The notes beneath the pieces were generated by a model. The model made no database searches and was not told where the DNA came from. It saw only the letters and a list, made by a program, of their open reading frames with translations. A stretch of 64,000 nucleotides of DNA from Catalinimonas alkaloidigena (lineage in GTDB: Bacteria; Bacteroidota; Bacteroidia; Cytophagales; Cyclobacteriaceae). The translations under genes were made by a program, and so were the position numbers. The DNA is taken from assembly GCF_029504655.1 (NCBI RefSeq), contig NZ_JAQFIL010000001.1:2485001-2549000 (forward strand), in the 5' to 3' direction. Of this stretch, positions 6,721-20,035 are shown one piece after another. Within the stretch, counting starts at the first letter, position 1. Each line of letters begins with the position of its first letter.

Positions 6721-7386
6721 ATGCATATCAAACTATTCCTATGTTCACTTATTATGCTTGTCTTGATGTCGTTTAATAAGAAAGATAAGAAGAAAGTAGT
6801 TTTTTTTGGCGATTCTATCACTGCAGCAGGTGAAAGTGATCCTTCCGGATATATCAATTTACTAAGAGAGCACATAGATACTGCGGAGTTTCAGCTTATT
6901 GGCAAAGGGATAGGGGGTAACAAAGTCACGGATCTGGAAAACAGAATTGAAAAGGATGTACTTTCGCTTGATCCCGACATTGTATTCGTATATATAGGAA
7001 TCAATGATGTGTGGCATTTTTATGAACCCGAAGGTGCTGTAGGTACTACTATTGAACGCTACGAAGAAGGATTATTTACTATCGCCAAGCGATTAGAGGA
7101 ACAGGGGAGCAGGATTATCTTCTGTACTCCCACTGTGATAGGGGAAAACCCTTCTTTTGATGGACAAATCAATCAGGAACTAGATCAATACGCTCAAGTA
7201 GTGAGAAAAGTCTCTATGGAGACAGGCGCAGAGCTATGTGACCTGAGAAATAAGTTTAAATCTTATTTGAAGAAAAATAATGCTGATGCCCGGAACAGTG
7301 GTGTACTCACTTCTGACAGAGTTCATTTGAATAGAAAGGGCAATGAATTTCTTGCAGAGCAAATGTTATTTTATTTGAACCAATGA
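6721..7386 (+). CDS. SGNH/GDSL-family hydrolase
   Basis: This 221-residue protein has a short hydrophobic N-terminal segment (membrane anchor or signal peptide) followed by an SGNH hydrolase fold. Block I is FFGDSITAAG with the nucleophile serine, block III is IGINDVWHF with the oxyanion asparagine, and block V is SDRVHLNRKG with the catalytic Asp and His. These enzymes hydrolyse esters: lipids, acyl groups on polysaccharide, or acetyl-xylan. The order and spacing of blocks are close to the bacterial G-D-S-L lipase/acylhydrolase group. It is a monocistronic gene and its natural ester is unknown. Confidence 0.88.
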   Translation: MHIKLFLCSLIMLVLMSFNKKDKKKVVFFGDSITAAGESDPSGYINLLREHIDTAEFQLIGKGIGGNKVTDLENRIEKDVLSLDPDIVFVYIGINDVWHFYEPEGAVGTTIERYEEGLFTIAKRLEEQGSRIIFCTPTVIGENPSFDGQINQELDQYAQVVRKVSMETGAELCDLRNKFKSYLKKNNADARNSGVLTSDRVHLNRKGNEFLAEQMLFYLNQ

Positions 7387-7534
7387 CAAGTAAATTTGCT
7401 TGTTTATATTTAATTTAACTAAAGCATTTCATTAAACAATTTTAAATTTCAGTTTAATTTTTTAACAATTTAATTGGATACTTAAAGCTGAATAACACTC
7501 GTTATTTTTATAAACAATTTTTTAAACTTGCATT

Positions 7535-7939
7535 ATGATAAAATTTAATAAAGTGCTGTTGGTGGATGACGATGAAGTTTCAAATTTTATCACTACCGAA
7601 ATCCTCAACACTATAAATCTAGCGGATACAATTCTTGTGGCTTCTAACGGGCAGGAAGCTTTAGATTTGATAGGTCAAGTCACTGATGATAAGGCTGGAC
7701 AAAATGATAAAGATTGCCCTGACCTAATATTTCTTGACCTTAACATGCCGGTGATGGACGGGTTTGAGTTTCTAGAGGCCTGTGAGCCCTGCAATAAAAA
7801 TAAACTCAATGTAGTTGTGTTGACATCATCTACCAACCCGAAAGACATTGAAGAAACAAGAAAATTTTCCCAGGTTAAGGGTTACCTAAGCAAGCCACTT
7901 ACTGCTGATAAGGTAGAAAAAGCAATTCAAAATATATAA
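7535..7939 (+). CDS. Single-domain response regulator
   Basis: A CheY-like receiver domain with no output domain (134 residues). The acidic pocket is DDDE (11-14), the phosphoacceptor is D68 in LIFLDLNMPVMDG, the conserved Thr/Ser is in VVLTSS, and the lysine is in LSKPL. The loop before D68 is longer than in CheY (KAGQNDKDCPD), a common feature of the Bacteroidota single-domain receivers that work with hybrid histidine kinases. No kinase is adjacent, so its partner is encoded elsewhere. The 148-base upstream region is very A/T rich. Confidence 0.9.
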   Translation: MIKFNKVLLVDDDEVSNFITTEILNTINLADTILVASNGQEALDLIGQVTDDKAGQNDKDCPDLIFLDLNMPVMDGFEFLEACEPCNKNKLNVVVLTSSTNPKDIEETRKFSQVKGYLSKPLTADKVEKAIQNI

Positions 7940-7957
7940 AACAGCTTTATCTGCGCA

Positions 7958-9892
7958 CTATTTTGTGTCCAGAATTTTTATGATTTCAATCTCGGTACGG
8001 CGGTTGAGTGCGCGTCCATTTTCTTCAAATTTGTTAGAAGCGATGGGTTTGCTTTCTCCAAAACCTCTGGCTGTGATGCGGTCGGCTGATAAACCATAAT
8101 TCAAAAGATAGTCAGCTACAGCCCTGGCTCTTTTTTCTGATAATTGCTGGTTATACGCATCATCCCCTATATCATCAGTATGCCCATTGATTTGTATTAC
8201 GATATTGGGTTGAGCTTTGAGTAGGGTATAAATCTGGTTTAGTTCAACCAGAGATTCTTTGCGTATATTAGTTTTGTTAGTGTCAAAAAAGATATTTTTC
8301 AAAATACCAATCGTACCTACCTTACTTTCCTGTAAGGCAATATCTATCGTATTATCTTTGTATGACTCCAAGGCTGACGATCTTATATTCTGTGAATAGA
8401 ACAGATAACCATCACTCTCTACAGTAAGTCCGAGGTTGGTGCCTTCCGGAATGGATATTCTGAATGTACCTGTTTCGGGATCTGAAAAGGTACGTGTCAT
8501 GACGATGTTCTTTTCATTATCAGAAAGTATAATTTCCGCTTCCAAAAAGTCACCCGTTTCAATATTACGTACTTTTCCTACCAGGAATGTCTCTTTGTCT
8601 TTTTTTCTTGACAGCGTCATCAAAGGCGCGTCTTTCTTTTCCTGAATAAAATCTCTTTTATCCATCAGAATAGCATAGATGTCATTTCCGCCCAAGCCAT
8701 CTTCGCGGGCGGTGGCGTAGTATCCATATTCATTATTTTTTGTGATCACAAAGTAATTATCGTCTTGCGCCGTGTTGATAGGAAAAGCCAAGTTGATAGG
8801 AGTGGTCCACTTTTCTCTGAGATATTTGCTCTTGAAAATATCAAATCCCCCCATTCCAAGATGGCCCGTAGAGCTAAAGTACAATGTCTCACCATCAGCA
8901 TGGATAAAAGGAGCATCTTCGTCCCCTGAAGTATTTATTTTTGGACCTAGGTTGATAGGTTTTCCCCATCTGCCAAAGTCATCTAAAGTAGAGACATAAA
9001 TATCAAAACCACCGTATCCTCCAGGGCGGTTGCTGGAGAAATACAGTTTATTGCCTTCACCGTTCATGGATATGGAAAGTTCCCGGTAGGGTGAGTTTAC
9101 TCCTCCTACTGCCTTAGGCTCCCCCCAGCTTTTACTGTTAAAGGTGGAAACGTAAAAATCACCATCTCCTTCATCCATATAGATGAAAAGCTGCTTACCA
9201 TCAGGTGAGATAGCTGCTCCACACTCATGAAAATTGGTATTTACGGCACCCTTTATTTTTTCAGGGGCAGCCCACTGATTATTTTTTTTGTGTGCGATGT
9301 AGATATCCTCATAATAGTTGTTGTCATAAGCCATATCTCCACCAGTAGAGCCTTCTCTTCTGGAAGTAAAAATTAACGAATTGCCATCCGCTGTTATCAG
9401 TGGTGCGTAATCCTGATTATCTGAATTAATACTTTTAAGGTTAGTTATTTTTACATCTTTAGGGTTATTGAAATACTCAATGCCAATAGCGCACTGCATA
9501 ATATGTTGATCAGCAGCAAAAGTATTATCTGTGATTTCACGGTAAGCAGTAAAATGATCTAGCGCTTCCATAAACTGATGGTTGTACTGGTAAGCCAATG
9601 CCAGATTGTATAATAGCTGACCTTTGGGGTTGGATATGTTTTCGTATACTTTTTTAAGATAAGGTAACGCTCTGTCTTTATACTTACTTTTCAGGTAAGC
9701 CTGACCAATCCTGTAAGCGAGTTCCAGATCACCGGGCTCTTTTTCATCTGCCAGAAGGTAGGTATTGACAGCTTCAGTATAAAAACCATCTTTATAGTAT
9801 TTGTCAGCCATTTTGATCAGTTTATTGAATGACTGAGCATGGCAATTTATTGAGATTACAGAAAGGAGAACTATGCCTATTAGGTGTTTCAT
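7958..9892 (-). CDS. PorE-like OmpA-family protein (TPR, PD40, CRD, OmpA)
   Basis: The protein is about 644 residues from the internal ATG at 9892, which gives a clean signal peptide (MKHLIGIVLLSVISINCHAQ); a longer start at 9919 is possible. Domains in order are TPR repeats (about 20-150), a PD40/WD40-like beta propeller built from SPDGKQLFIY-type blades (about 165-420), a carboxypeptidase-regulatory-like beta domain, and a C-terminal OmpA peptidoglycan-binding domain with IQINGHTDDIGDDAYNQQLSEKRA. This order is the one described for PorE of the type IX secretion system, which links the outer-membrane complex to peptidoglycan. Paralogues with the same order are common in Cytophagales, so the T9SS role is inferred. 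No other T9SS gene is nearby. Confidence 0.8.
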   Translation of the reverse strand: MKHLIGIVLLSVISINCHAQSFNKLIKMADKYYKDGFYTEAVNTYLLADEKEPGDLELAYRIGQAYLKSKYKDRALPYLKKVYENISNPKGQLLYNLALAYQYNHQFMEALDHFTAYREITDNTFAADQHIMQCAIGIEYFNNPKDVKITNLKSINSDNQDYAPLITADGNSLIFTSRREGSTGGDMAYDNNYYEDIYIAHKKNNQWAAPEKIKGAVNTNFHECGAAISPDGKQLFIYMDEGDGDFYVSTFNSKSWGEPKAVGGVNSPYRELSISMNGEGNKLYFSSNRPGGYGGFDIYVSTLDDFGRWGKPINLGPKINTSGDEDAPFIHADGETLYFSSTGHLGMGGFDIFKSKYLREKWTTPINLAFPINTAQDDNYFVITKNNEYGYYATAREDGLGGNDIYAILMDKRDFIQEKKDAPLMTLSRKKDKETFLVGKVRNIETGDFLEAEIILSDNEKNIVMTRTFSDPETGTFRISIPEGTNLGLTVESDGYLFYSQNIRSSALESYKDNTIDIALQESKVGTIGILKNIFFDTNKTNIRKESLVELNQIYTLLKAQPNIVIQINGHTDDIGDDAYNQQLSEKRARAVADYLLNYGLSADRITARGFGESKPIASNKFEENGRALNRRTEIEIIKILDTK

Positions 9893-10039
9893 AAACCGTA
9901 TGCTTTTAAAAAAACGCATACAGCAAGTAGATCGAGTGCTTATAGAATAAAAACTCAGATTTGTTTACAACCTATGGATGTACAATAAGCGATAGTTTTG
10001 TAGTACAATTGCTTTCAAAATGTATTCAGCAAAGGGTAA

Positions 10040-11359
10040 CTATTCGTTTCCTTTGAGCCACATTTTAATCAGTGAACGATAGTCAGTGTAATGAATATAA
10101 CGTTCGTTGGTTAAGAAAAATACCTGAAGCGGGTTTCCTTCTTCAGCATTCAATACCGCGTAAGGGCGTATGTTATCCAGTGTTGATGAAGAAGTGATTT
10201 GTTGTGCTTTCCACCTCCCTTTTTCTAATCTTTTCCACTGTTCAATTTCAAATATTCCGTTTTGCTCAGTGGATAAATAGACTATCTCAGGATTCTCATG
10301 ATCCAAAACCACTCCTCCTGAATAATTCATTTCTCTTTCTACGGTTCCGGCCAATGTTTGAGGAAACCACTTGCCGGCATGAGTGAGGAACTGGCGTTCC
10401 CATTGCTTTCCGTTCCATCGTGCATAGTGGTAATAGTGGGAGGAGTCATCAGGAAAAGAGGCATAGGTAAGTACAGGGTTTCCATCATCATCCGCAGCGA
10501 TATCCCAGATCCAGGCTTTGTTGGATGTAGAACCATCATGCACCATCTCTGCCTGTTGTGGACTGAAGGGCACCTCAGATAAAGATATTATTTTTTCTCC
10601 ACTGGCTTTATGAAAGTCACCATCCTCGTAATAGGCATAGTAGATACTGTTGGTAGTTTCATTTCTTGGGTGACCATCCGTAAAAGCGATATGAAGCCTT
10701 TCACCATCACTATAGACTTTTACATAAGGCCTCCGGTTTCGGTATATTCTTTCAGGCAGAATCAGGATTTTACCTTTCGTCCAAGTCTTTCCGCCATCCT
10801 TTGAGATAGAGTAGTTAGGTTTAAAGTCCATACCCCTCCATAATAAAAAGAGCTCATCCTTAACTTTCCATACATTTACATAAGTGTAAGTTTTGGAATA
10901 GCCAGCGTAGGTTGTGGTATCATTTAGTGTTAAAGAACGCCTTTCTTCCCAACTGTTTATATTTTCAGGCTCACGACTAACTAGCTGGTAGATAGGTGTT
11001 TCACGAGAGTGTTTAGCATAAAAAACCATGATACGTCCATCCTCAGTAAAGTGCAATGCGGGATTATCATGGTCGTCTATTTCCAGATTTTCGTGCAGTA
11101 CTTCGGTTTCAATTTGATCACTGTTATGATCATAATAGCCAATCAGGATATTGCCGGTTGAGTCTACCCAGGAGGCATAGGTCCTTTGGTGCTTACCTTC
11201 ATAGTAAACTGCCCTGGGGTCAGAAAACCAACACCAGGCACCATCATCACTAAAGGTCTTTACGGCTGATGGTTCATCAAGTGTTTGTGCTGAAACTTTA
11301 ATGCAGATAAGGCAATAAGCCCATAGCAGGAAAAGAGAAAATGCTGATAATTTTTTCAT
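10040..11359 (-). CDS. Secreted BNR_4 beta-propeller protein
   Basis: This 439-residue protein has a signal peptide (hydrophobic core SLFLLWAYCLICIK, cleavage after VSAQ). It is of the BNR_4 repeat group: DDGAWCWFSDPRAVYYEG opens the first blade, and further blades carry DHDNPALHFTEDGRIMVFY, YSISKDGGKTWTKGK and NPVLTYASFPDD. Members occur in polysaccharide-utilisation loci of marine Bacteroidota and include polysaccharide lyases and proteins of unknown activity. The invariant WCWFSDPRA string is characteristic of the family, but the catalytic residues are not settled. No PUL genes flank it. Confidence 0.8.
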   Translation of the reverse strand: MKKLSAFSLFLLWAYCLICIKVSAQTLDEPSAVKTFSDDGAWCWFSDPRAVYYEGKHQRTYASWVDSTGNILIGYYDHNSDQIETEVLHENLEIDDHDNPALHFTEDGRIMVFYAKHSRETPIYQLVSREPENINSWEERRSLTLNDTTTYAGYSKTYTYVNVWKVKDELFLLWRGMDFKPNYSISKDGGKTWTKGKILILPERIYRNRRPYVKVYSDGERLHIAFTDGHPRNETTNSIYYAYYEDGDFHKASGEKIISLSEVPFSPQQAEMVHDGSTSNKAWIWDIAADDDGNPVLTYASFPDDSSHYYHYARWNGKQWERQFLTHAGKWFPQTLAGTVEREMNYSGGVVLDHENPEIVYLSTEQNGIFEIEQWKRLEKGRWKAQQITSSSTLDNIRPYAVLNAEEGNPLQVFFLTNERYIHYTDYRSLIKMWLKGNE

Positions 11360-11518
11360 AGGTTGTTATAAAACAGTAGAGCACATGCCCGCTACCCTAC
11401 GTCTCAGTAAAATAGAAAGAGCATGATGCTCCCAAAAATATAAACATCTTCTTAATAGTGAAACCTATGATAATTTAAATGCCAGCTATGCTAATGTTTA
11501 GAGAAGTAGTTTTAGCTT

Positions 11519-12115
11519 CTAAGATGCTTTAGGTGCTCTGCGATAGCAGTAATAGCTGAGTACTTCAATGATTGCTAACCTGATCGCTTGATTGATAGGA
11601 TAAAACTTATCTGTAAGCCTGTGGTCAACATTGCACAAACGATAATAATAGTTGCGCATAACCGGACTTGCCTTTCCTTCTTTTACCCAATGTTCCGCTT
11701 TACTGTATATTTCTGGGAGCTCTGTTTTGATGACACTGCAAGTAGAAAGTCTTTTTACTCCGTATTTATCAAATGCTGCAGAAAATCCGAAAAGGCGACA
11801 GATGAGCCCTCTCTGTGGATAAGAGGTGCATTTTCCCTGTCGGCTGTCAACACTGAATGTCTGAAGGATCGCACAAACCTGATCTTCCTGATAGCTTCTT
11901 AATTTTTCTAACCACTGTTCAGCCTGATTATTCACAAATAAATGATAGGCAAGTGGTAAAAATTCAAGCACGGTTGCCTCTATATCTGACTTAAAACAAC
12001 ATTTACCACAACCTGCTATGCAGTGCATACCGGTATCTTGACGAAAGGCCTGCATCTCCTGATCCAGTTCCTTATAAAGCTTTTCAACTGCTTTTACTTT
12101 TTTCTTGATGGACAT
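11519..12115 (-). CDS. YkgJ-family cysteine-cluster protein
   Basis: This 198-residue cytosolic protein has the metal-chelating cysteine cluster of the YkgJ/CxxCxxCC family: CIAGCGKCCFKSDI at residues 32-45, then GKCTSYPQRGLICRLFG and a further Cys in STCSVIK. The family binds zinc or iron and has no defined reaction. The gene starts 74 bases after the stop of the type ISP-like gene in the same direction and may be cotranscribed with it. Confidence 0.85.
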   Translation of the reverse strand: MSIKKKVKAVEKLYKELDQEMQAFRQDTGMHCIAGCGKCCFKSDIEATVLEFLPLAYHLFVNNQAEQWLEKLRSYQEDQVCAILQTFSVDSRQGKCTSYPQRGLICRLFGFSAAFDKYGVKRLSTCSVIKTELPEIYSKAEHWVKEGKASPVMRNYYYRLCNVDHRLTDKFYPINQAIRLAIIEVLSYYCYRRAPKAS

Positions 12116-12188
12116 ATATAATTTTAAACTGAGATTAATACTGTAAATCAGGAAGAAGAGTTGCAGTTAGTATGAAAATAATTTTAGC

Positions 12189-13901
12189 CTACAAAGAAGG
12201 CTGGCGAGAAGCATCTTTCATCTCTTCAGCAATATAGACAAGCTGGACTGAAAGACTACATAAATGTTTAATTTGCTCAATGATTTCGGAAGGCTCATCA
12301 AGTATAGGCAGGTTGAATTGAGATTGATTTTTCTTCTTTTTACGCTGCCATTTAAGGAGGTACTCTAAATAGTGTGCAAAAGGGTAGCGCCCATCAAATT
12401 GATACTTCCAGACCTGATTCGGGATATTACTTAACGTAACTGATTTGTTCTGCTCTGTTAATATGATAAGCCCTCTTTCTACATCAAACTGATAACTAAA
12501 ATATTTGCTGATTTTCTTTTCGTGTATTTCTTCCTTCATTTGTATCGCTGAAGGTATGCTGCTTTTATTGTGTTCAGTAGTGTGGGCTACAAATATTAGT
12601 TTTCCCCATGCTACCCACTGCCTGAAACCGGGGTACAAGGGGACTCTGGGAAGCTCTTTCTCTAAAAATTCCTGATATTTATGAGGGTATTCAGGATCAT
12701 GTAAGACGGCAAAGGTATAGTAAAAAATGTTTTCTTTATTGACCGCTTCTGCATCTTTTTTGGCATCGTCATGCGCACGTGTGAGTATCGCAAGCTGATC
12801 TTTGAGCTCTTCTATGTAGGCTTTTACCTTTTGATAAATTACTTTTCTTTCAATCGCATCTCTTTCAAGGCGAAGCACTTTTCTCTTGAACTCATCAATT
12901 TTTTTGTAGGGTGGGGTAAGTAATTCTACATCAGAAGTAAAGTGGCGTGCTTCTTCTAACAAGTTATTGATTTGTGTTGGATATTTACTGATCACCGGGA
13001 GGTCACGGCTCACGCTTTCAATCTTATCAAGGGTTTGTGTAATACCTTCAGGCGGGAAAACAATGAAAGTCTGGTTGTGGGCTTTGGTTTTTTTTTGATA
13101 GTGTTCTTTGAAGTTTTTTAAAGTACTATCGCTAATATTTAGCGATGAGGGACCGCTCAGATGCTGACTGTTCAATGGAAAAACAAAAAACTTGTTCCAA
13201 AATTTGCTGCCCCACAGATTGACCAGCGGGTATACGTATTGATGTCGTTGACTATATGCTATTGCTGGAATACCTGTATTTTCCTCAGCAATCAGCTTTT
13301 CTTCCACATAAGCAAAAACTGAGACATAAGGTTCAAGCTCAATTTTTTTGATTTTTTGTTTGTCAAAAGTCAGCGTGACTCCTTCTTCAGCCATATTGAG
13401 TAAATGAGCAGGCCAGTTTATCAAAGGGTCGGAAACATCATTTTTTTTGTGGAGCTTCGCATATTGCCTGAGCACAAATTTAACCTTTTTTTCAAGCAGT
13501 TTAGGGTTGATATCAGTAAACCAGGCCTCCATCAGGCGTGCACTTCCCTTTTGGTAGCTGTCAAATATGGACGATTTCTGATCGTAAATAGCAAGATGTT
13601 GAAAAAAATCGCTTTCCGGTAAACCTAACCAATAATCCTGTTGATCGGTATAAACGTTTTGCCATTTTAGCTCTTCAAAATCTTTTGTTTCCTCCTGGTT
13701 AAATTTTAGGAGGGAAACATCAGTATGTTGAATGTTGGTAGTTTTTGTAGCTTTTGCCTTTTTGATGAGGTACAGCACAGCCAGTCCATCATCTTCATTT
13801 TTCAATTCAAGAATGTATATTTCCTGAAAAATATATTCCAGAAATCGTCTGAAATCACTGTGTTTTGAATCGCTCAAAAAATATCCGGGCAATAAACACA
13901 T
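12189..13901 (-). CDS. 3' part of a frameshifted, type ISP restriction-enzyme-like protein
   Basis: The first open start is the ATG at 13901, but the same frame runs open and homologous upstream to about 14000, so this is the 3' portion of a longer gene. From 13980 the frame reads ERLILWSANHLGEQGII, then MCLLPGYFLSDS and FRRFLEYIFQEIYILELK. That matches the end of the MTase domain of type ISP (LlaBIII/LlaGI-like) enzymes. The C-terminal half (IFYYTFAVLHDPEYPHKYQE, ELPRVPLYPGFRQW, SNIPNQVWKYQFDGR) matches their target-recognition domain. A lysine-rich helical segment (about 300-380) matches the spacer helices. It follows the 349-codon upstream frame with only an A7 tract between them. Expected product if joined: about 923 residues. 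Confidence 0.8.
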   Translation of the reverse strand: MCLLPGYFLSDSKHSDFRRFLEYIFQEIYILELKNEDDGLAVLYLIKKAKATKTTNIQHTDVSLLKFNQEETKDFEELKWQNVYTDQQDYWLGLPESDFFQHLAIYDQKSSIFDSYQKGSARLMEAWFTDINPKLLEKKVKFVLRQYAKLHKKNDVSDPLINWPAHLLNMAEEGVTLTFDKQKIKKIELEPYVSVFAYVEEKLIAEENTGIPAIAYSQRHQYVYPLVNLWGSKFWNKFFVFPLNSQHLSGPSSLNISDSTLKNFKEHYQKKTKAHNQTFIVFPPEGITQTLDKIESVSRDLPVISKYPTQINNLLEEARHFTSDVELLTPPYKKIDEFKRKVLRLERDAIERKVIYQKVKAYIEELKDQLAILTRAHDDAKKDAEAVNKENIFYYTFAVLHDPEYPHKYQEFLEKELPRVPLYPGFRQWVAWGKLIFVAHTTEHNKSSIPSAIQMKEEIHEKKISKYFSYQFDVERGLIILTEQNKSVTLSNIPNQVWKYQFDGRYPFAHYLEYLLKWQRKKKKNQSQFNLPILDEPSEIIEQIKHLCSLSVQLVYIAEEMKDASRQPSL

Positions 13902-13980
13902 TATGATTCCTTGCTCACCCAGGTGGTTTGCAGACCATAAAATTAGTCTTTCCTTTTCTCCTGAAACTTTAGTTTCCAGC

Positions 13981-14961
13981 TTAAGCTCTTTTTTTAGATT
14001 TTAAAATTTGCTGGTCCAGGATGGGAATAGCCTTTTTAATATAAGGGTAAGGATGAGGTAGCCTGAGGTCAAGACAGATAGCGGTAAAGTCATGATCATT
14101 TAGCTGTGTTGCGACTACTTGTTTACCCTCTTTTTCAGTAAATAAGTTCGTTTGATGCCCCAGGCCTTGTACATTCAACGGATCCTGCCATTGGGCAGGA
14201 AGATGAATTTCACTTTCAGTTTCATGAGCAGATTCGGAAAAACACTTTTGCAGGTAATCAAACAAATCAGTAAAACAGTAAAGACTTCTTTTTTGCTTTA
14301 CTTCTTCCTGTACATCCTCCTCTACAACCGATAGCAAACTTTTCTCCCAATAGCTTTCCTTAGTATTGATGAACAGAATTTCAATATCTTTATCGTTTAT
14401 GCTTTTGCCAAGCTTCCGTTTAAGCAGATAATTATTTAACTGATGAAGTTTTGAAATTGCTTCCTGAGAGAGGAGAGGGGGGAAAGTAGCGTATCTGAGG
14501 TAATGCCAAGTCGCCTGCTGTATTTCAAGCGGAAAAGCGGAGATCCCTTTATTGATAAAATTATCTCCCAAAGTATTGCGTTGAGAACTTTTTTTCAGAT
14601 GCTGAATGATATCCTTCAAACTATATAAGGCAGGGGCATTCCTAATCTTCTCCCATTTAGCTTCGTCCTCTAAAAATGAAAACAGGAAAGCGTCAGCAAG
14701 AATAATGTGTATGTCTTTTTCATCAAGTTTTGCCGACAAACAGGCTCTGACTTGATCTGTAAAATGTACAAGAAGGGATTGAAAAGGTCTGGACTGTGCT
14801 TTTTCCTTTTCAATGTACTTAGTGACTGAATGATTAAGTTGATTGTACTCATTTTTCCATCCGTCAAGCTTTTTTTGTAAGCCGTGTAATGATTCCTCGT
14901 CCAGTGCGTATGCAATCCGGAGTTGGTTAAGAAAAGCAATGTGTCTTTTATCTAAAGGCAT
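13981..14961 (-). CDS. 5' part of the same type ISP-like protein, MTase motifs lost
   Basis: The ATG at 14961 (MPLDKRHIAFLNQLRIAYAL) is preferred over a start at 15030 because the latter lies inside the terminator hairpin of the upstream YtxH gene. The frame ends at a TAA at 13981-13983 just after an A7 tract; reading six As instead continues directly into the 12189-13901 frame. The helical region LLVHFTDQVRACLSAKL resembles the segment before the MTase core of type ISP enzymes. No SAM-binding motif I is present, and the place of the catalytic NPPY motif holds CLDLRLPHPYPYIKKAI. Nuclease and helicase domains are also absent. So even a repaired protein should be unable to methylate or cleave by the known mechanism. 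Confidence 0.75.
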   Translation of the reverse strand: MPLDKRHIAFLNQLRIAYALDEESLHGLQKKLDGWKNEYNQLNHSVTKYIEKEKAQSRPFQSLLVHFTDQVRACLSAKLDEKDIHIILADAFLFSFLEDEAKWEKIRNAPALYSLKDIIQHLKKSSQRNTLGDNFINKGISAFPLEIQQATWHYLRYATFPPLLSQEAISKLHQLNNYLLKRKLGKSINDKDIEILFINTKESYWEKSLLSVVEEDVQEEVKQKRSLYCFTDLFDYLQKCFSESAHETESEIHLPAQWQDPLNVQGLGHQTNLFTEKEGKQVVATQLNDHDFTAICLDLRLPHPYPYIKKAIPILDQQILKSKKRA

Positions 14962-15012
14962 GTTGAGCAGAGACAAGCGTAGGAATAGCTCAAGAAAATG
15001 AGATAATAGGAA

Positions 15013-15041
15013 TAAAAAAAGTTCGGCCATTAAGCCGAACT
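15013..15041 (-). terminator. Terminator after the YtxH gene
   Basis: On the minus strand AGTTCGGC, a 6-base loop and GCCGAACT are followed by seven T residues. It lies 17 bases past the YtxH stop and rules out the longest start for the next gene. Confidence 0.8.
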
Positions 15042-15057
15042 GATCAATTAAATTATC

Positions 15058-15456
15058 TTAAGAGGGATTATTGCCATTCATGCCAAGTTTTTCTTCAGCA
15101 TGTTTGCGTGCTTCTTCCATCTCTGATTCTAAGTCAAAGTGTCCGTTTTCAGTCAAAAAAAAACTACTGATTCTATCTCTCAGCTTGTCGCCAGACTCCG
15201 GCGCCAGCAATAAGGCCATGATGCCCCCGGCAATTAAACCACCTGCCAGACCGGCAAAAATAGCAGTGTTGTCATCAGTCTGCTTTCTTTTTGGTTTCAG
15301 CAGTAAATGCTGTTGTTCTAAAAGTTTTTCTTTCAAGACTTTATTCATGGCCAGTGCTGAACCGGTCACGTAGCTTATTGTTTTAAGGGCTTCTAAAGAA
15401 GGAAACTTTTTTTTCTTCTTTTTGCCGAATGTAAAGTTACTGCTTCCAAATTTCAT
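15058..15456 (-). CDS. YtxH-domain protein
   Basis: This 132-residue protein has a lysine-rich N-terminal part (FGKKKKKKFPSLEALK), one glycine-rich membrane segment (AIFAGLAGGLIAGGIMALLLAP) and the family tail ESGDKLRDRISSFF followed by an acidic helix. This is the YtxH/gas-vesicle-like family, small single-pass proteins often linked to stress in Bacteroidota and Firmicutes, without a known reaction. It is longer at its N-terminus than the typical 90-110 residue members. It is a single transcription unit with its own terminator. Confidence 0.8.
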   Translation of the reverse strand: MKFGSSNFTFGKKKKKKFPSLEALKTISYVTGSALAMNKVLKEKLLEQQHLLLKPKRKQTDDNTAIFAGLAGGLIAGGIMALLLAPESGDKLRDRISSFFLTENGHFDLESEMEEARKHAEEKLGMNGNNPS

Positions 15457-15570
15457 AGATGAAAAAGTTTAATGGTTTAAAATGTATTCTTTAAATGTAA
15501 TTTACGATGATTATAAAGATATACAAACGATATCCGAAGGCTGATGTTATGCCTGTTTGAAATAACTGTG

Positions 15571-16233
15571 TCAATAAATGATCTCAGGCTCTGCATCACT
15601 TAGAGCCTGCTCATTAAGTTTCCAGAATTGCGCAGCTACAGCATCAGGATGATACTTTTCATCACTTTTTTGTACAATGCCGTTGACTGTGACAGTAGCC
15701 ACATGAATGTTAAGCGGCTTGAGCTGTTCATGAAGGCTATAAGCCAGGTTACGGAGACCAGCTTTACCAATTGCTAATGATCCGTAGCTTGGATTAGGAT
15801 GTATAGACAATCCTCCACCTGTAAAAAATATTTTGCCTTTGCCTGAGTTTTCCATCTCCTGGCTAACTGTACGGCTCGCGATAAGGGCGCCCAAGGTATT
15901 AACCCTGAAATCCATCATAAGGTCATCTTCATCCATGGTCATCAGATCCACTTCCCTAACGGCGGCAGCATTGTATACCAGCACTTCAGTGGGGCCTAAT
16001 GATTCACGAATATATGCAAGGCAGGAGATAAGTTGTTGACTGTCAGATACATCAGCGATGTAATAATAGGCTTCAACCTTGTCCCGCTGCAATTTTTTCT
16101 GGTATTGACTTAGTTTTTCATCAGATCTGGAAATCATAGCGATGGTAAAGCCCTGATGACCAAATTTACTTGCAATAGACATGCTGATGCCTTCTCCCAT
16201 GCCTACAATTGTAAGAATCTTGCTGCTAGCCAT
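15571..16233 (-). CDS. SDR-family oxidoreductase with altered active site
   Basis: This 220-residue Rossmann protein (ILTIVGMGEGISMSIASKFG) has the conserved strand AEVLVYNAAAVRE in place of NNAG and the segment SYGSLAIGKAGLRNLAYSL. When aligned on the lysine of GKAG, the residue four positions before it is leucine, not the catalytic tyrosine of YxxxK. A tyrosine does occur three residues further upstream. Related glycine-modified SDRs of unknown function are found in plants, cyanobacteria and Bacteroidota. It is likely cytosolic. No neighbour indicates a substrate. Confidence 0.8.
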   Translation of the reverse strand: MASSKILTIVGMGEGISMSIASKFGHQGFTIAMISRSDEKLSQYQKKLQRDKVEAYYYIADVSDSQQLISCLAYIRESLGPTEVLVYNAAAVREVDLMTMDEDDLMMDFRVNTLGALIASRTVSQEMENSGKGKIFFTGGGLSIHPNPSYGSLAIGKAGLRNLAYSLHEQLKPLNIHVATVTVNGIVQKSDEKYHPDAVAAQFWKLNEQALSDAEPEIIY

Positions 16234-16367
16234 ATAGTTAAGTATGCATTTTCCCTAAAATAACTTAAAAAGAGTGCTAAAGTTATAGGCCCAAGAGAAG
16301 GAATACTTTGCTTTATTGCTGGCAATAATAACAATATCCTGGTTCTACCACATTGATCAAAATCTGG

Positions 16368-17204
16368 CTATCCACTTGGCTTACTATTAAAAAAGTTACT
16401 GAAAAAAAGAAATTGGTACTGAACAGCATTGTCCCAGTAAGCCCAATTATGTTTTCCTGGCCTTTCTATATAATCATGGGGTATATCGTTTTCCAGGAGT
16501 TTATGATGGAGACGCCGATTAATTTCAAAAAAGAAATCATCAACCCCACAATCTATGATTATTTTCAACTGAGCTGACTTGATCAGGTCAATCATATTGA
16601 TCACGGATAGAGAATCCCATCGGGCCGGATATTTTGAATAAGGCCCAAGTTTCTCATCTATTTCCCAGCCGTTGATGTCATAAGTAAGATCAACGCCCCC
16701 GCTCATGCTTCCCGCGGCACCAAAGGTTTGCTGATGCCTGATGCCCAGAAACAAGCCTCCATGACCTCCCATACTTAATCCGGTAATTGCTCTGCTGTTT
16801 GCTTCCGGTATTGTGCGATAGGCGGAATCCACAAAGTGAACCACCTCATTTGCGATATGGGTTTCGTACTGACTCTGAGGGTCAATAGGGCTATCAATAT
16901 ACCAGCTATTATAACCTCCATCCGGCATCACAACGATGAGCTGGTACTGATCCGCCAGGGAAGGCACTACACTTGCTTTGGTAGTCCAGCCTGCGTAACT
17001 GTCACTATAGCCATGCAGAAGGTAAACAGTAGGGTAATGATCAGTAGATTCTGCATATCCCTCAGGGGTGATGACAATGGCTGGAATGTTTTTGTTCATC
17101 GCCTCACTATAAATCTCCACTGTATCAATCTGCGCAGCATGTAAAGTGCTAAGCTGGGTGAGTAGTATAAAACTTCCTAGCAGACAGCGAGTCATTTTGT
17201 GCAT
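16368..17204 (-). CDS. Secreted esterase (esterase D / FrmB-like family)
   Basis: This 278-residue alpha/beta hydrolase has a signal peptide (TRCLLGSFILLTQLSTLHAA) and an exported mature part. The nucleophile elbow is GLSMGGHGG (Ser at about 133); the acidic residue lies in IDCGVDDFFFE and the histidine in PGKHNWAYW near the C-terminus. This family includes feruloyl esterases, S-formylglutathione hydrolase-like proteins and mycolyltransferases; the signal peptide argues for a polymer- or ester-cleaving role outside the cytosol. It is the last complete core gene before the accessory island. A fragment of a close paralogue (AAQIDTVQM) lies at 31605-31660. Confidence 0.88.
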   Translation of the reverse strand: MHKMTRCLLGSFILLTQLSTLHAAQIDTVEIYSEAMNKNIPAIVITPEGYAESTDHYPTVYLLHGYSDSYAGWTTKASVVPSLADQYQLIVVMPDGGYNSWYIDSPIDPQSQYETHIANEVVHFVDSAYRTIPEANSRAITGLSMGGHGGLFLGIRHQQTFGAAGSMSGGVDLTYDINGWEIDEKLGPYSKYPARWDSLSVINMIDLIKSAQLKIIIDCGVDDFFFEINRRLHHKLLENDIPHDYIERPGKHNWAYWDNAVQYQFLFFSNFFNSKPSG

Positions 17205-17287
17205 ATCCTTTTTTTGCTGTCAATTTAAAGGCTTTTCATTCAATATGGTAGAAAAATGCAATATCTCTTATCCATTGCTTAGTACAC

Positions 17288-17535
17288 TGTAAACTAAATT
17301 ATACGATATTTTCCATTTGTGTTACATGGCAGTTGTCATTCAGTCGGACGGCCGATGCCGAGGAATCGCAGCGCTCCACGCCGGACGGCGAACCGCCTTT
17401 TTAAGACTTTCAAAGATATAGCTAAAGAACCTTCATGCGCTAAGTGCGATGGAGTAGCTTGAAATTTTTCTTCAAACTATTAACAAGATCCCTCCTGGAA
17501 GACAAAGCTAAAAATACTGTGTAATTTAGTTTACA
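17288..17535. mobile_element. MITE-like element with 17-bp terminal inverted repeats
   Basis: TGTAAACTAAATTATAC at 17288-17304 and its inverted partner at 17519-17535 (reverse complement TGTAAACTAAATTACAC) match at 16 of 17 positions and bound 248 bp with no open frame. The interior holds a G/C-rich patch around 17343-17400 ending in a short hairpin (GGCGAACCGCC and T-run). No target duplication was recognised at the edges. A decayed non-autonomous transposon is the simplest reading. Confidence 0.5.
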
Positions 17536-17620
17536 AACCACTTTGCCTTCAAACCTAAGCCTATGAGGGGAGAGAGTATAGCCCTATCTTGGTGCCTCAG
17601 GGCTAGGGATACTTTGGTGT

Positions 17621-18265
17621 TCACTTTCCCTTCACCGTCTTGCCCAGGGCTTCCAGGTACTGGGGACTGTCTTTGAGGGCCAGCTTTGCCACGTACATAA
17701 ATTCCCTCATCCACTGGTCTAGCTCGCGGCTATATTGATCACGTTTTTGCGTAGCCTCTTGTGCGCGTGAGCGGCTCAGTGACTGCTGCACCCGATAGTC
17801 CTCAATCGCCTCTATCATGGCGATGGTTTGGTCTACCTCCGACCGGCTGATGTTGTATTTCTTCAGGATGTCGGCCGCCCTATCGTAATGATAGTAGAAA
17901 GCCTTCACCTGTCCCAGCCATTCGGGCAGCGATAGTTTACGCGGGCCTTCTATTTTGAGCAGGTCCCAAAGATCGCTACGGCCTTCCAGGGCTATCCGGG
18001 CTACTTTCCGGTGCTTCAAATAGCGGGTATTCACCTCACGGCGGGCCTCTTTCATGTCCCGGGTTGCCTTTTTCTGACCGCCCAGATGTTCAAAGTAAAG
18101 TGAATCCCACTTTTCAACCTCTCCCAGCAGGTTATCTGCTATGCCCAGTTTGGCCTCATCGTAGCCAAAGCCCTGCATGGAGGATTGAATCTCCGCATGT
18201 TGGCGGGTAGCTTCCAGGGAAGTCTGTACCCAACCTTTTTTGTAGTCTTTCTTATTTCGTATCAT
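17621..18265 (-). CDS. Conserved helical protein of unknown function
   Basis: A 214-residue hydrophilic, mostly alpha-helical protein with many charged residues (MKEARREVNTRYLKHRKVAR, SRSRAQEATQKRDQYSREL). There is no signal peptide, membrane segment or recognised motif. A central WLGQVKAFYYHYDRAADILKKYNISRSEVD looks like a short helical bundle. I do not recognise the family. Composition is closer to G/C-rich than the surrounding intergenic DNA, and it lies between a MITE-like element and the 42-bp repeat array, so it may belong to the mobile segment. Confidence 0.6.
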   Translation of the reverse strand: MIRNKKDYKKGWVQTSLEATRQHAEIQSSMQGFGYDEAKLGIADNLLGEVEKWDSLYFEHLGGQKKATRDMKEARREVNTRYLKHRKVARIALEGRSDLWDLLKIEGPRKLSLPEWLGQVKAFYYHYDRAADILKKYNISRSEVDQTIAMIEAIEDYRVQQSLSRSRAQEATQKRDQYSRELDQWMREFMYVAKLALKDSPQYLEALGKTVKGK

Positions 18266-18522
18266 AGACTGTTGTATGAATTAATAAAGCTGTTGCGGCT
18301 CTTTAACACGGGTATAAAGGGGATAGAAGGGCACTCCTTCCTTTTTTTTCCACCAAGCCGGCACAGCATTGAACAACTGCTCAACAAGTCAAAGCTAATT
18401 AATAAAATATAATTATATTTTTAAAAAATATAAATAAAATAACTTAACGCTTTAATGAATTTACTTTCTTACATCAGGGCATTGGGGAGCGGAATCAAGG
18501 TTTAGTCTTTTGTACAAAAGAC
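18266..18522. other. Intergenic segment upstream of the repeat array
   Basis: This stretch is A/T rich apart from a short G/C patch near 18335. It ends in CTTTTGTACAAAAG (18507-18520), a perfect 14-bp palindrome that sits where a degenerate unit before the first repeat would lie. No gene is supported. Confidence 0.4.
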
Positions 18523-18774
18523 AGATCAGTACTGATCTATGACTTGTACGGCCAAAAAACTTGTAGATCAGCACTGATCTATTACATGCGCGGTGAAAAA
18601 ACTTACAGATCAGTATTGATCTATTACATAGACCGTGCGCCAATGGACAGATCAGACTTGATATATACGTTGGACGACAAAATAACTTATAGATCACTAC
18701 CGATCTATGCGTTGAACTACCAAATAAACCATAGATGAGTACCGATCTATATGTTGAACCAGCGGAATAAGTAT
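18523..18774. repeat. Six 42-bp tandem repeats with palindromic cores
   Basis: Units begin at 18523, 18565, 18607, 18649, 18691 and 18733, each exactly 42 bp. Unit 1 opens with AGATCAGTACTGATCT, a perfect 16-bp palindrome; unit 2 (AGATCAGCACTGATCT) and unit 3 (AGATCAGTATTGATCT) keep it with one change each, and units 4-6 are more diverged. A seventh, decayed unit can be traced to about 18816. Because 42 is a multiple of three, open frames on both strands show a 14-residue repeat (RSVLIY), which is a by-product of the palindrome. There are no variable spacers, so it is not a CRISPR array. Iteron-like or protein-binding array is the nearest description. Confidence 0.85.
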
Positions 18775-18816
18775 AGAAGGGAAAGTTTCTATAGGTCGGA
18801 GTATAGAAAAAAATAG

Positions 18817-19249
18817 GTATAGGCTTTATATCAGCTTTTGTCATGCTTTGAAAAGTCAACCCTCCTCAGAGTTCCTTACAGGTAACTGAGGGAGGAGGAA
18901 GCTGGTAATTCAGTGTCCTCTGCGACAGTTCCACTACGGGGTAACTCTAAGTGAGGCAGAGAAACCCTTTGTTATCGGAGTCATTCCGGAGCTTGTGAAA
19001 CTTGCAAAGGAATCTTTACCACCTTGTAAGAAGTACAGCCCTGCTGCATGGCCGCCACGGAGTGGTAAAGCCTTCCTGGCCGGACCCTCCAGGCCGGACC
19101 TTCCAGGCCGGAATCCCTACGGGGTGACTGAAAGGTTTGTTGCTTTATTTTGTTTCTTGTCCCTTAACTCCCGGCAAACCTCAAGAAAGAAAATTCAGGC
19201 ATGAACAAATGAGGAAGGTTAAGGCATCCCGGGCAGCTTCTGTTTAGGC
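18817..19249. other. Non-coding island DNA with hairpin and 14-bp G/C-rich repeats
   Basis: No gene is supported. A long imperfect hairpin lies at 18858-18895 (CCTCCTCAG ... CTGAGGGAGG arms). Three tandem 14-bp units sit at 19072-19113 (CTTCCTGGCCGGAC, CCTCCAGGCCGGAC, CTTCCAGGCCGGAA). The same 14-mer recurs once at 31008-31021 inside the IS91 transposase remnant, which links both sites to mobile-element debris. Confidence 0.5.
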
Positions 19250-19420
19250 CCCCTCTAGCGCGCATCTTCCTGCTGGGGTAACGCGCTTGCATGATGCGTG
19301 CTTCAAGTCAACGGGCGTAAAATCACAATTATTTTACATAAAAACCTATAAAAATTAAATATAAAGTCTTTACATTAGATGAGGTATTGCGGATAAAATG
19401 CACTGTGCACTTTATACAGA
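19250..19420. repeat. 171-bp direct repeat, copy A
   Basis: This copy matches 21709-21879 over the full 171 bp with only a handful of changes. It opens with CCCCTCTAGCGCGCATCTTC and ends in TTTATACAGA. Near its end it carries the palindrome seen intact in copy B, here with one arm mismatch (ATAAAATGCAC / GTGCACTTTAT). It stops 24 bases before the Crp/Fnr gene start and could supply that gene's promoter or operator. Confidence 0.85.
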
Positions 19421-19444
19421 TGTTGTAGCAAATAAAAGATAATC

Positions 19445-20035
19445 ATGAATTTCGAACAGATTAAAGAACGAACAAGACCCATAGTCAACAAAATGTCACC
19501 TGTATCGGAGGGGTCATTAGATCTGATGAGTGACTTGATTTTAGTTGAAGTTTATGAAAAAGGTGATGTGTTTATTGATAGAGGGAAAAAAAATAACAAG
19601 GAATACTTTGTTTATGAAGGCGTCTGCCGGAGCTTTTTGCTAAGCCCGGAAGGTGAGGAAATAACTATATCTTATTTTCTTGAAGGCAGTGTACTCTCTC
19701 CGAATAAAACGAGAACAGCTAATCAAATATCTCACCTCAATTTTCAAGCGCTTACAAAGCTAACCGTAGCTAGTTTAAACGCTGACAAGTTTGAGCAGCT
19801 AATGATAAATCACATTGACATACGCGAGTTTGGAAATATGGTTTTACAAAATGAACTCCTTGCAAAAGTTGAAAAAGAAATTGCCCTCGCCTCGCTGAAC
19901 GGGAGAGAAAGGCTCATTCTTTTTAGAGAAAAATATCACTTTCTGGAAAATCTAATCTCACATGTTGACATTGCCTCCTATCTGGGAATTACAAATATTT
20001 CCCTAAGCAGGCTCCGTAAAGGACTCTTGGAGTAA
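19445..20035 (+). CDS. Crp/Fnr-family transcription regulator
   Basis: The 196-residue protein has an N-terminal cyclic-nucleotide-binding-type beta roll (VYEKGDVFIDRGKKNNKEYFVYEGVCRSF) and a short C-terminal helix-turn-helix (HVDIASYLGITNISLSRLRKGL). The key cAMP-binding RxS motif of CRP is not evident, as in many Bacteroidota members whose effector is unknown. It is preceded by repeat copy A and followed after 79 bases by an Lnt-like gene. The intervening CATCCTTTAAC...TTAATGGATTCG resembles the segments found after the other Crp-type genes of the island and may be its operator. Confidence 0.88.
   Translation: MNFEQIKERTRPIVNKMSPVSEGSLDLMSDLILVEVYEKGDVFIDRGKKNNKEYFVYEGVCRSFLLSPEGEEITISYFLEGSVLSPNKTRTANQISHLNFQALTKLTVASLNADKFEQLMINHIDIREFGNMVLQNELLAKVEKEIALASLNGRERLILFREKYHFLENLISHVDIASYLGITNISLSRLRKGLLE

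Follow-up and report, generated by a model that had tools for sequence, protein, structure and literature searches.

A probable pseudoenzyme family related to the restriction-methylation enzyme DrdV in Cytophagales and its split member in Catalinimonas alkaloidigena

The split gene and its intact relatives

A stretch of 64,000 nucleotides of Catalinimonas alkaloidigena (NZ_JAQFIL010000001.1), referred to here as the window and used with its first letter as position 1 of all coordinates, carries on its minus strand a gene that is related to restriction-modification (R-M) enzymes and is split between two reading frames. The N-terminal piece (13981-14961, minus strand; 326 codons and a stop), which aligns with residues 1-320 of intact relatives, comprises a helical coupler-like region and the first half of a methyltransferase (MTase)-like fold. 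The C-terminal piece (12189-14000, minus strand), recognized by a match to the Pfam family PF18135 and by alignment, comprises the rest of the MTase-like fold, a recognition domain, a helical insert and the segment named guide; its frame is open over 12192-14000 (603 codons) and closed by the stop at 12189-12191, and its first ATG, at 13901, would give a protein of 570 amino acids (aa).

An earlier note on this DNA had described two minus-strand frames overlapping by 20 bp, between the TAA at 13981-13983 that closes the N-terminal frame and the upstream stop of the C-terminal frame at 14001-14003, with a run of seven As (A7; T7 on the plus strand) at 13989-13995 inside the overlap. This arrangement was found as described, as was the continuity of homology across the join, intact relatives aligning up to the A-run on the minus strand from both the N-terminal and the C-terminal side. 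Runs of this type are common (75 runs of at least seven in the window, nine of which start within 12189-14961); what lies beyond chance is that the break falls in a homologous protein that is single-frame in all intact relatives seen. The true start of the gene is probably the ATG at 14961 (MPLDKRH..., 326 aa to the stop), because an initial MP occurs at this point in nine of ten intact relatives and the ATG of the longer open reading frame (ORF), at 15030, sits in a terminator-like hairpin.

A search with the C-terminal piece returned 13 proteins, the window's own included, of which ten (P0002-P0011), each a single chain of 882-929 aa, can be aligned from end to end; P0002 and P0004 carry Catalinimonas names, and two short recognition-domain proteins (P0012 and P0013) were left out of further analysis. 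In two other genomes of the genus, the gene forms one open frame of 940 codons (G001) and of 929 codons (G002). Intact single-frame homologues without the catalytic motif NPPY, which the earlier note had proposed as a test of its reading, do exist, and they also lack motif I and a nuclease. An arrangement as two separate genes was not found in G001 or G002, no orthologue with NPPY and a nuclease was found, and the profile similarity to type ISP enzymes is clear.

Domain content and loss of catalytic motifs

The assignment of the C-terminal piece to the type ISP recognition domain holds, with a match to PF18135 (Type_ISP_C) at E 1.1e-30. A Pfam search with the N-terminal piece gave no convincing family match and no match to PF18135, and this piece was the exception among the 12 rows of alignment A1, the other 11 of which matched PF18135. 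By sequence profile, however, the best match in the PDB is DrdV (E 4.4e-53), and fold comparison of a modelled family member finds the coupler, MTase and recognition fold within one chain. Although the similarity to PF18135 stands, the label 'type ISP' given by the earlier note needs refining, since both the closest fold and the closest sequence are those of DrdV, a single chain of 1029 aa.

Compared with DrdV (PDB 7lo5 and 7lvv), a single-chain restriction-methylation enzyme, the family shares the coupler, MTase and recognition fold over DrdV residues 143-1029 but lacks the nuclease domain, the S-adenosylmethionine (SAM) motif I and NPPY, and carries in addition a helical insert of approximately 110 aa. 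In contrast to the type ISP enzymes LlaGI (5ffj) and LlaBIII (4xqk), it has no nuclease, helicase or MTase motifs, and it has an insert near the junction of core and guide. Active DrdV-like enzymes of Bacteroidota (L043, L045, L049 and P0014), which are among the nearest relatives in the tree and share the domain order, carry DPATGTG or DPCTGTG as well as NPPY, unlike the family; L043, L045 and L049 also have a nuclease-like motif (e.g., PDG...GYWEAKD) and no insert.

In the window, the place of SAM motif I (14347-14379, minus strand), aligned with active relatives through the intact relatives, reads ILFINTKESYW, and the place of motif IV (14041-14073, minus strand), which is NPPY in active relatives, reads LDLRLPHPYPY in the alignment. 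The loss of catalytic motifs that had been noticed from the letters is therefore real: the NPPY place is LDLR-LPHPYPY and no DPxxGxG occurs in either piece. Neither SAM motif I nor NPPY was present in any of 18 family proteins or any of 21 insert-bearing loci, and in the window clade the loop after the NPPY place is deleted. The absence of a nuclease and a helicase was likewise borne out, as the model from the window clade aligns to DrdV only from residue 143 and no SF2 helicase/ATPase or nuclease match in Pfam was listed for the window pieces or the 882-929-aa relatives. An N-terminal PD-ExK nuclease is absent in the window clade and, by eye, degenerate in L051 and less clearly so in proteins like it. 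In short, no member examined retains the MTase motifs, and wherever the nuclease was inspected it is lost or degenerate, while the MTase-plus-recognition fold is kept in a modelled member. Catalysis by the ancestral route appears unlikely on these grounds.

It might still be argued that these proteins are ordinary R-M enzymes whose motifs have merely diverged, considering that the overall fold is retained, that NCBI applies the label 'type ISP restriction/modification enzyme' to many family members, and that a PADLOC type IIG model matches the C-terminal piece (E 7.7e-19). The absence of motif I and NPPY from all members examined, together with the state of the nuclease and the deleted loop just described, makes this explanation very improbable.

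Distribution and phylogeny

In a sample of 196 genomes at the family level, 11 matched at E 1e-10, with full-length matches solely in three genomes of this genus. A profile built from the insert and its flanks (A4) gave full-length matches in 21 of 390 genomes of the order; 44 further genomes matched at E 0.001, mostly in the flank alone, with a few weak matches reaching part of the insert. Within the Flammeovirga family (f19), this profile matched 16 of 18 genomes, and both misses are small genomes (2.8 and 3.0 Mb). In a phylum-wide sample of 296 genomes, which holds few genomes of the order, A4 at E 1e-10 matched only the window's own genome and nothing from the Flammeovirga family. A search of a protein collection with profile A3, limited by a word pre-filter, returned just four proteins at E 1e-10. 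Used on the phylum with at most two candidates scored per genome, A3 matched 52 of 395 genomes at E 1e-20; among the nine best loci (L070-L078), NPPY is present in all but one, the 530-codon frame L077, and none carries the insert pattern. A contig scan with A2 yielded 53 pattern matches and no confirmed relative.

A second conserved group of dead proteins of approximately 900 aa was found in the genus g55 (L056, L057, L058, L063, L064 and L066). Like the family, these proteins have no NPPY or motif I (the motif IV place reads GNSFKTSQ) and show a ratio of nonsynonymous to synonymous substitution rates (dN/dS) of approximately 0.1; unlike the family, they lack a large insert.

Two trees of 36 rows each were built, neither of which includes the near-copies L058, L063 and L066. 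In the first, which has no outgroup and contains four long branches, L051 stands beside active rows and the group from the other family appears in three changes; the branch of the window's C-terminal piece is not lengthened (0.43 versus approximately 0.51 for the path to its sister pair). For the second, alignment columns of the insert and the first 160 residues were dropped, a type ISP outgroup was used, and the long branches L053, L059, L062 and L065 were omitted along with L061, L070, the window's C-terminal piece and P0011. Here, all 21 dead rows, including three of the insert-less g55, form one clade with a support of 81, nested among active enzymes; L098 and L051 are early branches of this clade.

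Selection and constraint

The dN/dS test on dead relatives suggested by the earlier note points to purifying selection, with values of approximately 0.07-0.23 where measurable, all from pairs outside the window's own clade: 0.07 for one Flammeovirga pair with dS below 1, 0.23 for L054/L055, and 0.07-0.12 over 15 pairs of g55. Two other Flammeovirga pairs gave lower values but are saturated (dS 2 or more). The claim of the earlier note that the gene may be a repurposed relative that has lost catalysis is thus well supported for the family, by intact homologues without motifs or nuclease and by purifying selection.

The two clades with inserts differ in where constraint falls. Conservation in Flammeovirga is 0.87-0.93 per 20-residue block at the places of motif I (YLYPSFTLPPF) and motif IV (FGTIQQMSLGNRT), whereas values in the window clade are 0.45-0.55 at these places, without a peak; the two clades may therefore use the scaffold differently. 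The Flammeovirga pattern also bears on the alternative that a new active or ligand site has arisen in the former MTase domain, in which case the proteins would be enzymes of a new kind instead of binding proteins. The conserved blocks favor such a site, but the motifs differ among clades and the peak is missing from the window clade, and we consider this alternative improbable.

The helical insert

The insert (12732-13076, minus strand; approximately 115 residues in the window) lies between the two halves of the recognition domain, as found by alignment and by the helices in models of relatives. In the family alignment, it comprises approximately 110 residues, bordered by the helix NIxDxALxxF and the segment ENIFYYxYAVL, and is missing from five active relatives. 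It is followed by the C-terminal part of the recognition domain (12192-12731, minus strand), defined by PF18135, profile and models, which corresponds to the guide in type ISP terms together with the end of the core. The recognition domain of type ISP enzymes has been described as split into subdomains, core and guide among them (PMC4872093); in these terms, according to our own mapping from the profile alignment, the insert would sit near the core-guide junction.

Within the window clade, the insert has a mean identity of 79%, compared with 28-39% in the other parts of the protein, whereas in active enzymes the most conserved part is the MTase domain (61.5%). Insert residues of the window are identical to those of G002 and G001 at 86% and 55%, respectively, and four-fold sites at only 25% and 33%, which indicates that the constraint acts on the protein and rules out a DNA-level cause of the conservation. 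No Rfam family was found at threshold in window positions 7000-20000. Pfam gave no convincing match to the insert (NET2A, GAS and spectrin at E 0.00027 or worse, with NET2A and spectrin below the cut-off). Several helices are present in the insert in both models of relatives, with low confidence in the first; in the Flammeovirga model, the insert helices (approximately residues 552-651) are mostly confident, at 69-88 per block on the predicted local distance difference test (pLDDT).

Nature of the break

The break is single: up to it, both pieces are open and alignable, and no second lesion occurs in approximately 920 codons. The earlier note had considered phase variation or slippage, in which the A7 run would act as a switch yielding a short and a full-length protein, an idea favored by the position of the run exactly within the 20-bp frame overlap. 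However, G001 and G002 have no A-run at the orthologous site, P0002 and P0003 read LNIYKEL at this place, which no A7 could encode, and longer runs elsewhere in the gene (A9 and A8 in the mRNA) keep the frame. Conserved slippage was rejected because of the orthologous sites, and a switch of any kind is unlikely.

Two other explanations appear equally likely, each with a probability somewhat short of one half. A real and recent inactivating frameshift would mean that the species is losing the gene and that the two frames are a pseudogene, which agrees with a single lesion in a genome whose other genes look sound. When the genes of 400 kb of G002 and of one 19.5-kb stretch each of G002 and G001 were compared with 464 kb of the window's genome, 38 matching pairs (at least 50% identity) fell at 28 places, of which 24 were covered to at least 85% in one frame, two were partial and two were split (the studied gene and one gene with at least two frame changes); the window accounts for 15 of these places, all but one of which are whole. 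The assembly therefore does not look full of indels, although in so small a sample a single error is still possible; genome completeness is 99.71%. On the other hand, the lack of a second lesion and of a longer branch for the C-terminal piece implies that an inactivation would have to be very recent. The same two features, with homology and open frames continuing undamaged on both sides of a homopolymer site and no increase in rate, fit an indel error of the assembly in an intact gene, against which stand the in-frame homopolymers of 7-9 elsewhere in the gene and the few splits in the small genome sample. For this one copy, the decay proposed by the earlier note and an assembly error would look alike in the assembled sequence.

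Elsewhere in the same genome (L118, approximately 12499-13066), a gene that we take to be Uma2-like is split by at least two frame changes and is likely a true pseudogene.

Genomic neighborhood

The gene is followed by a CxxCxxCC (YkgJ-like) protein gene (11519-12115, minus strand, identified by Pfam) and preceded by a YtxH-like gene (15058-15456, minus strand; E 6.3e-08 and 33.4 bits, under the Pfam cut-off of 37.5). The order esterase, SDR, YtxH-like, studied gene, CxxCxxCC, BNR and OmpA/PD40 is kept in all three genomes of the genus. Terminator scans, which report consensus matches only, detected a hairpin of nine pairs followed by a T-run between the YtxH-like and the studied gene (15020-15041, minus strand), with a counterpart in the scan of G002 and a comparable element seen by eye in G001; hence, transcription probably begins anew at this gene and does not continue from the YtxH-like gene. 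Cotranscription with the YkgJ-like gene, raised by the earlier note, seems possible and would fit the shared strand and order in three of three genomes. A weak terminator-like site (five pairs) at 12186-12202, between the two genes, speaks against simple cotranscription; no terminator-like site was listed at the matching place in G002. A neighborhood shared more widely was considered and rejected: five genomes outside the genus with a CxxCxxCC match have, by eye, no YtxH-like or studied gene beside it.

A defense context was looked for among 20 neighbors and, apart from the matches given here, was not found. Nine of the ten in the window match no PADLOC model at E 1e-5, and the tenth matches ZorB models through its OmpA domain; eight of the ten sampled elsewhere likewise match none, and the two exceptions are DNA polymerase I and a HIRAN protein that matches candidate PDC-M03B models. 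In three Flammeovirga genomes, the HIRAN protein (L060:9259-9624; by Pfam in L060, alike-looking in L061 and L067) adjoins the dead gene, which has DNA polymerase I on its other side, at most a hint of a link to DNA transactions.

Several other observations were made along the way. In four Flammeovirga-family genomes (L053, L062, L054 and L055), the genes after the dead gene are LPG-synthase-TM-like (by Pfam in L062; in L055 after a response-regulator-like gene) and, by our reading, amidohydrolase-like; the dead gene also lies near carA and rplQ in L053 and L062, again by our reading. In the window, a 214-aa protein (17621-18265) without a Pfam match at E 1e-5 is 87% identical to its G002 orthologue, the highest value among the neighbors compared, and two 42-bp tandem arrays of 2.4-2.6 copies (18521-18759) underlie a 132-codon ORF of repeated motif.

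Proposed function

Taken together, it is reasonably probable that this is a conserved pseudoenzyme family of Cytophagales, whose molecular role would be binding without catalysis, the insert acting as a docking module; our confidence is lower for any particular partner. The family would descend from a DrdV-like single-chain restriction-methylation enzyme and would work by binding instead of catalysis, with the old MTase/recognition clamp serving as a scaffold, perhaps still in contact with DNA via the guide, while a conserved partner would dock on the insert. In this species, the single break at A7 would be either a very recent inactivation of the window's copy or an assembly indel. No paper on such a dead insert-bearing family was listed in searches of an open-access library. 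A role in regulating an active paralogue of the same genome is not supported, as searches of that genome found solely the studied gene at the thresholds used.

A number of observations weigh against this proposal. The window's own copy is broken, all pairs with a measured dN/dS lie outside its clade, and occurrence in the order is patchy (the 21 of 390 genomes given above). The Flammeovirga model is poor overall (pLDDT 52.4), and in that clade the strongest constraint falls on the former MTase domain rather than on the insert. The net charge of the insert is -3.0 per 100 residues in the window clade (acidic) and +5.4 in the six members of the other family counted (basic), which speaks against one shared partner. 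Support for a single dead clade is moderate, one of five outgroup rows fell inside, and g55 lies in the dead clade although it has no insert. The MTase-like part has a net charge of -3.2 per 100 residues versus -0.1 in active enzymes, and the first recognition part -0.5 versus +2.5; these less basic parts argue against the old DNA clamp. The guide is the sole part more basic than in active enzymes (+2.4 versus -0.6), so that, with the charge of the clamp fallen and that of the guide risen, contact with DNA stays possible.

A broader and more tentative scenario, which we hold to be somewhat less likely than its opposite, is that a selfish restriction-methylation enzyme was converted, in an ancestral bacterium of the Cytophagales, to a host protein without catalytic activity, near-core in Flammeovirgaceae with a rebuilt former SAM pocket, and constrained most strongly in the Catalinimonas clade at the newly inserted helical docking module.

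Significance

R-M genes are usually regarded as mobile and expendable. A dead one that selection has retained in 16 of the 18 Flammeovirga-family genomes sampled would illustrate exaptation clearly. The listing of several such genes as R-M enzymes in databases can mislead surveys of defense systems and methylomes, and two subfamilies with constraint on different parts represent a natural experiment on the use of the fold. DNMT3L is a catalytically dead methyltransferase that acts as a regulator or adaptor; if the broader scenario is true, this family would be a bacterial counterpart of such proteins.
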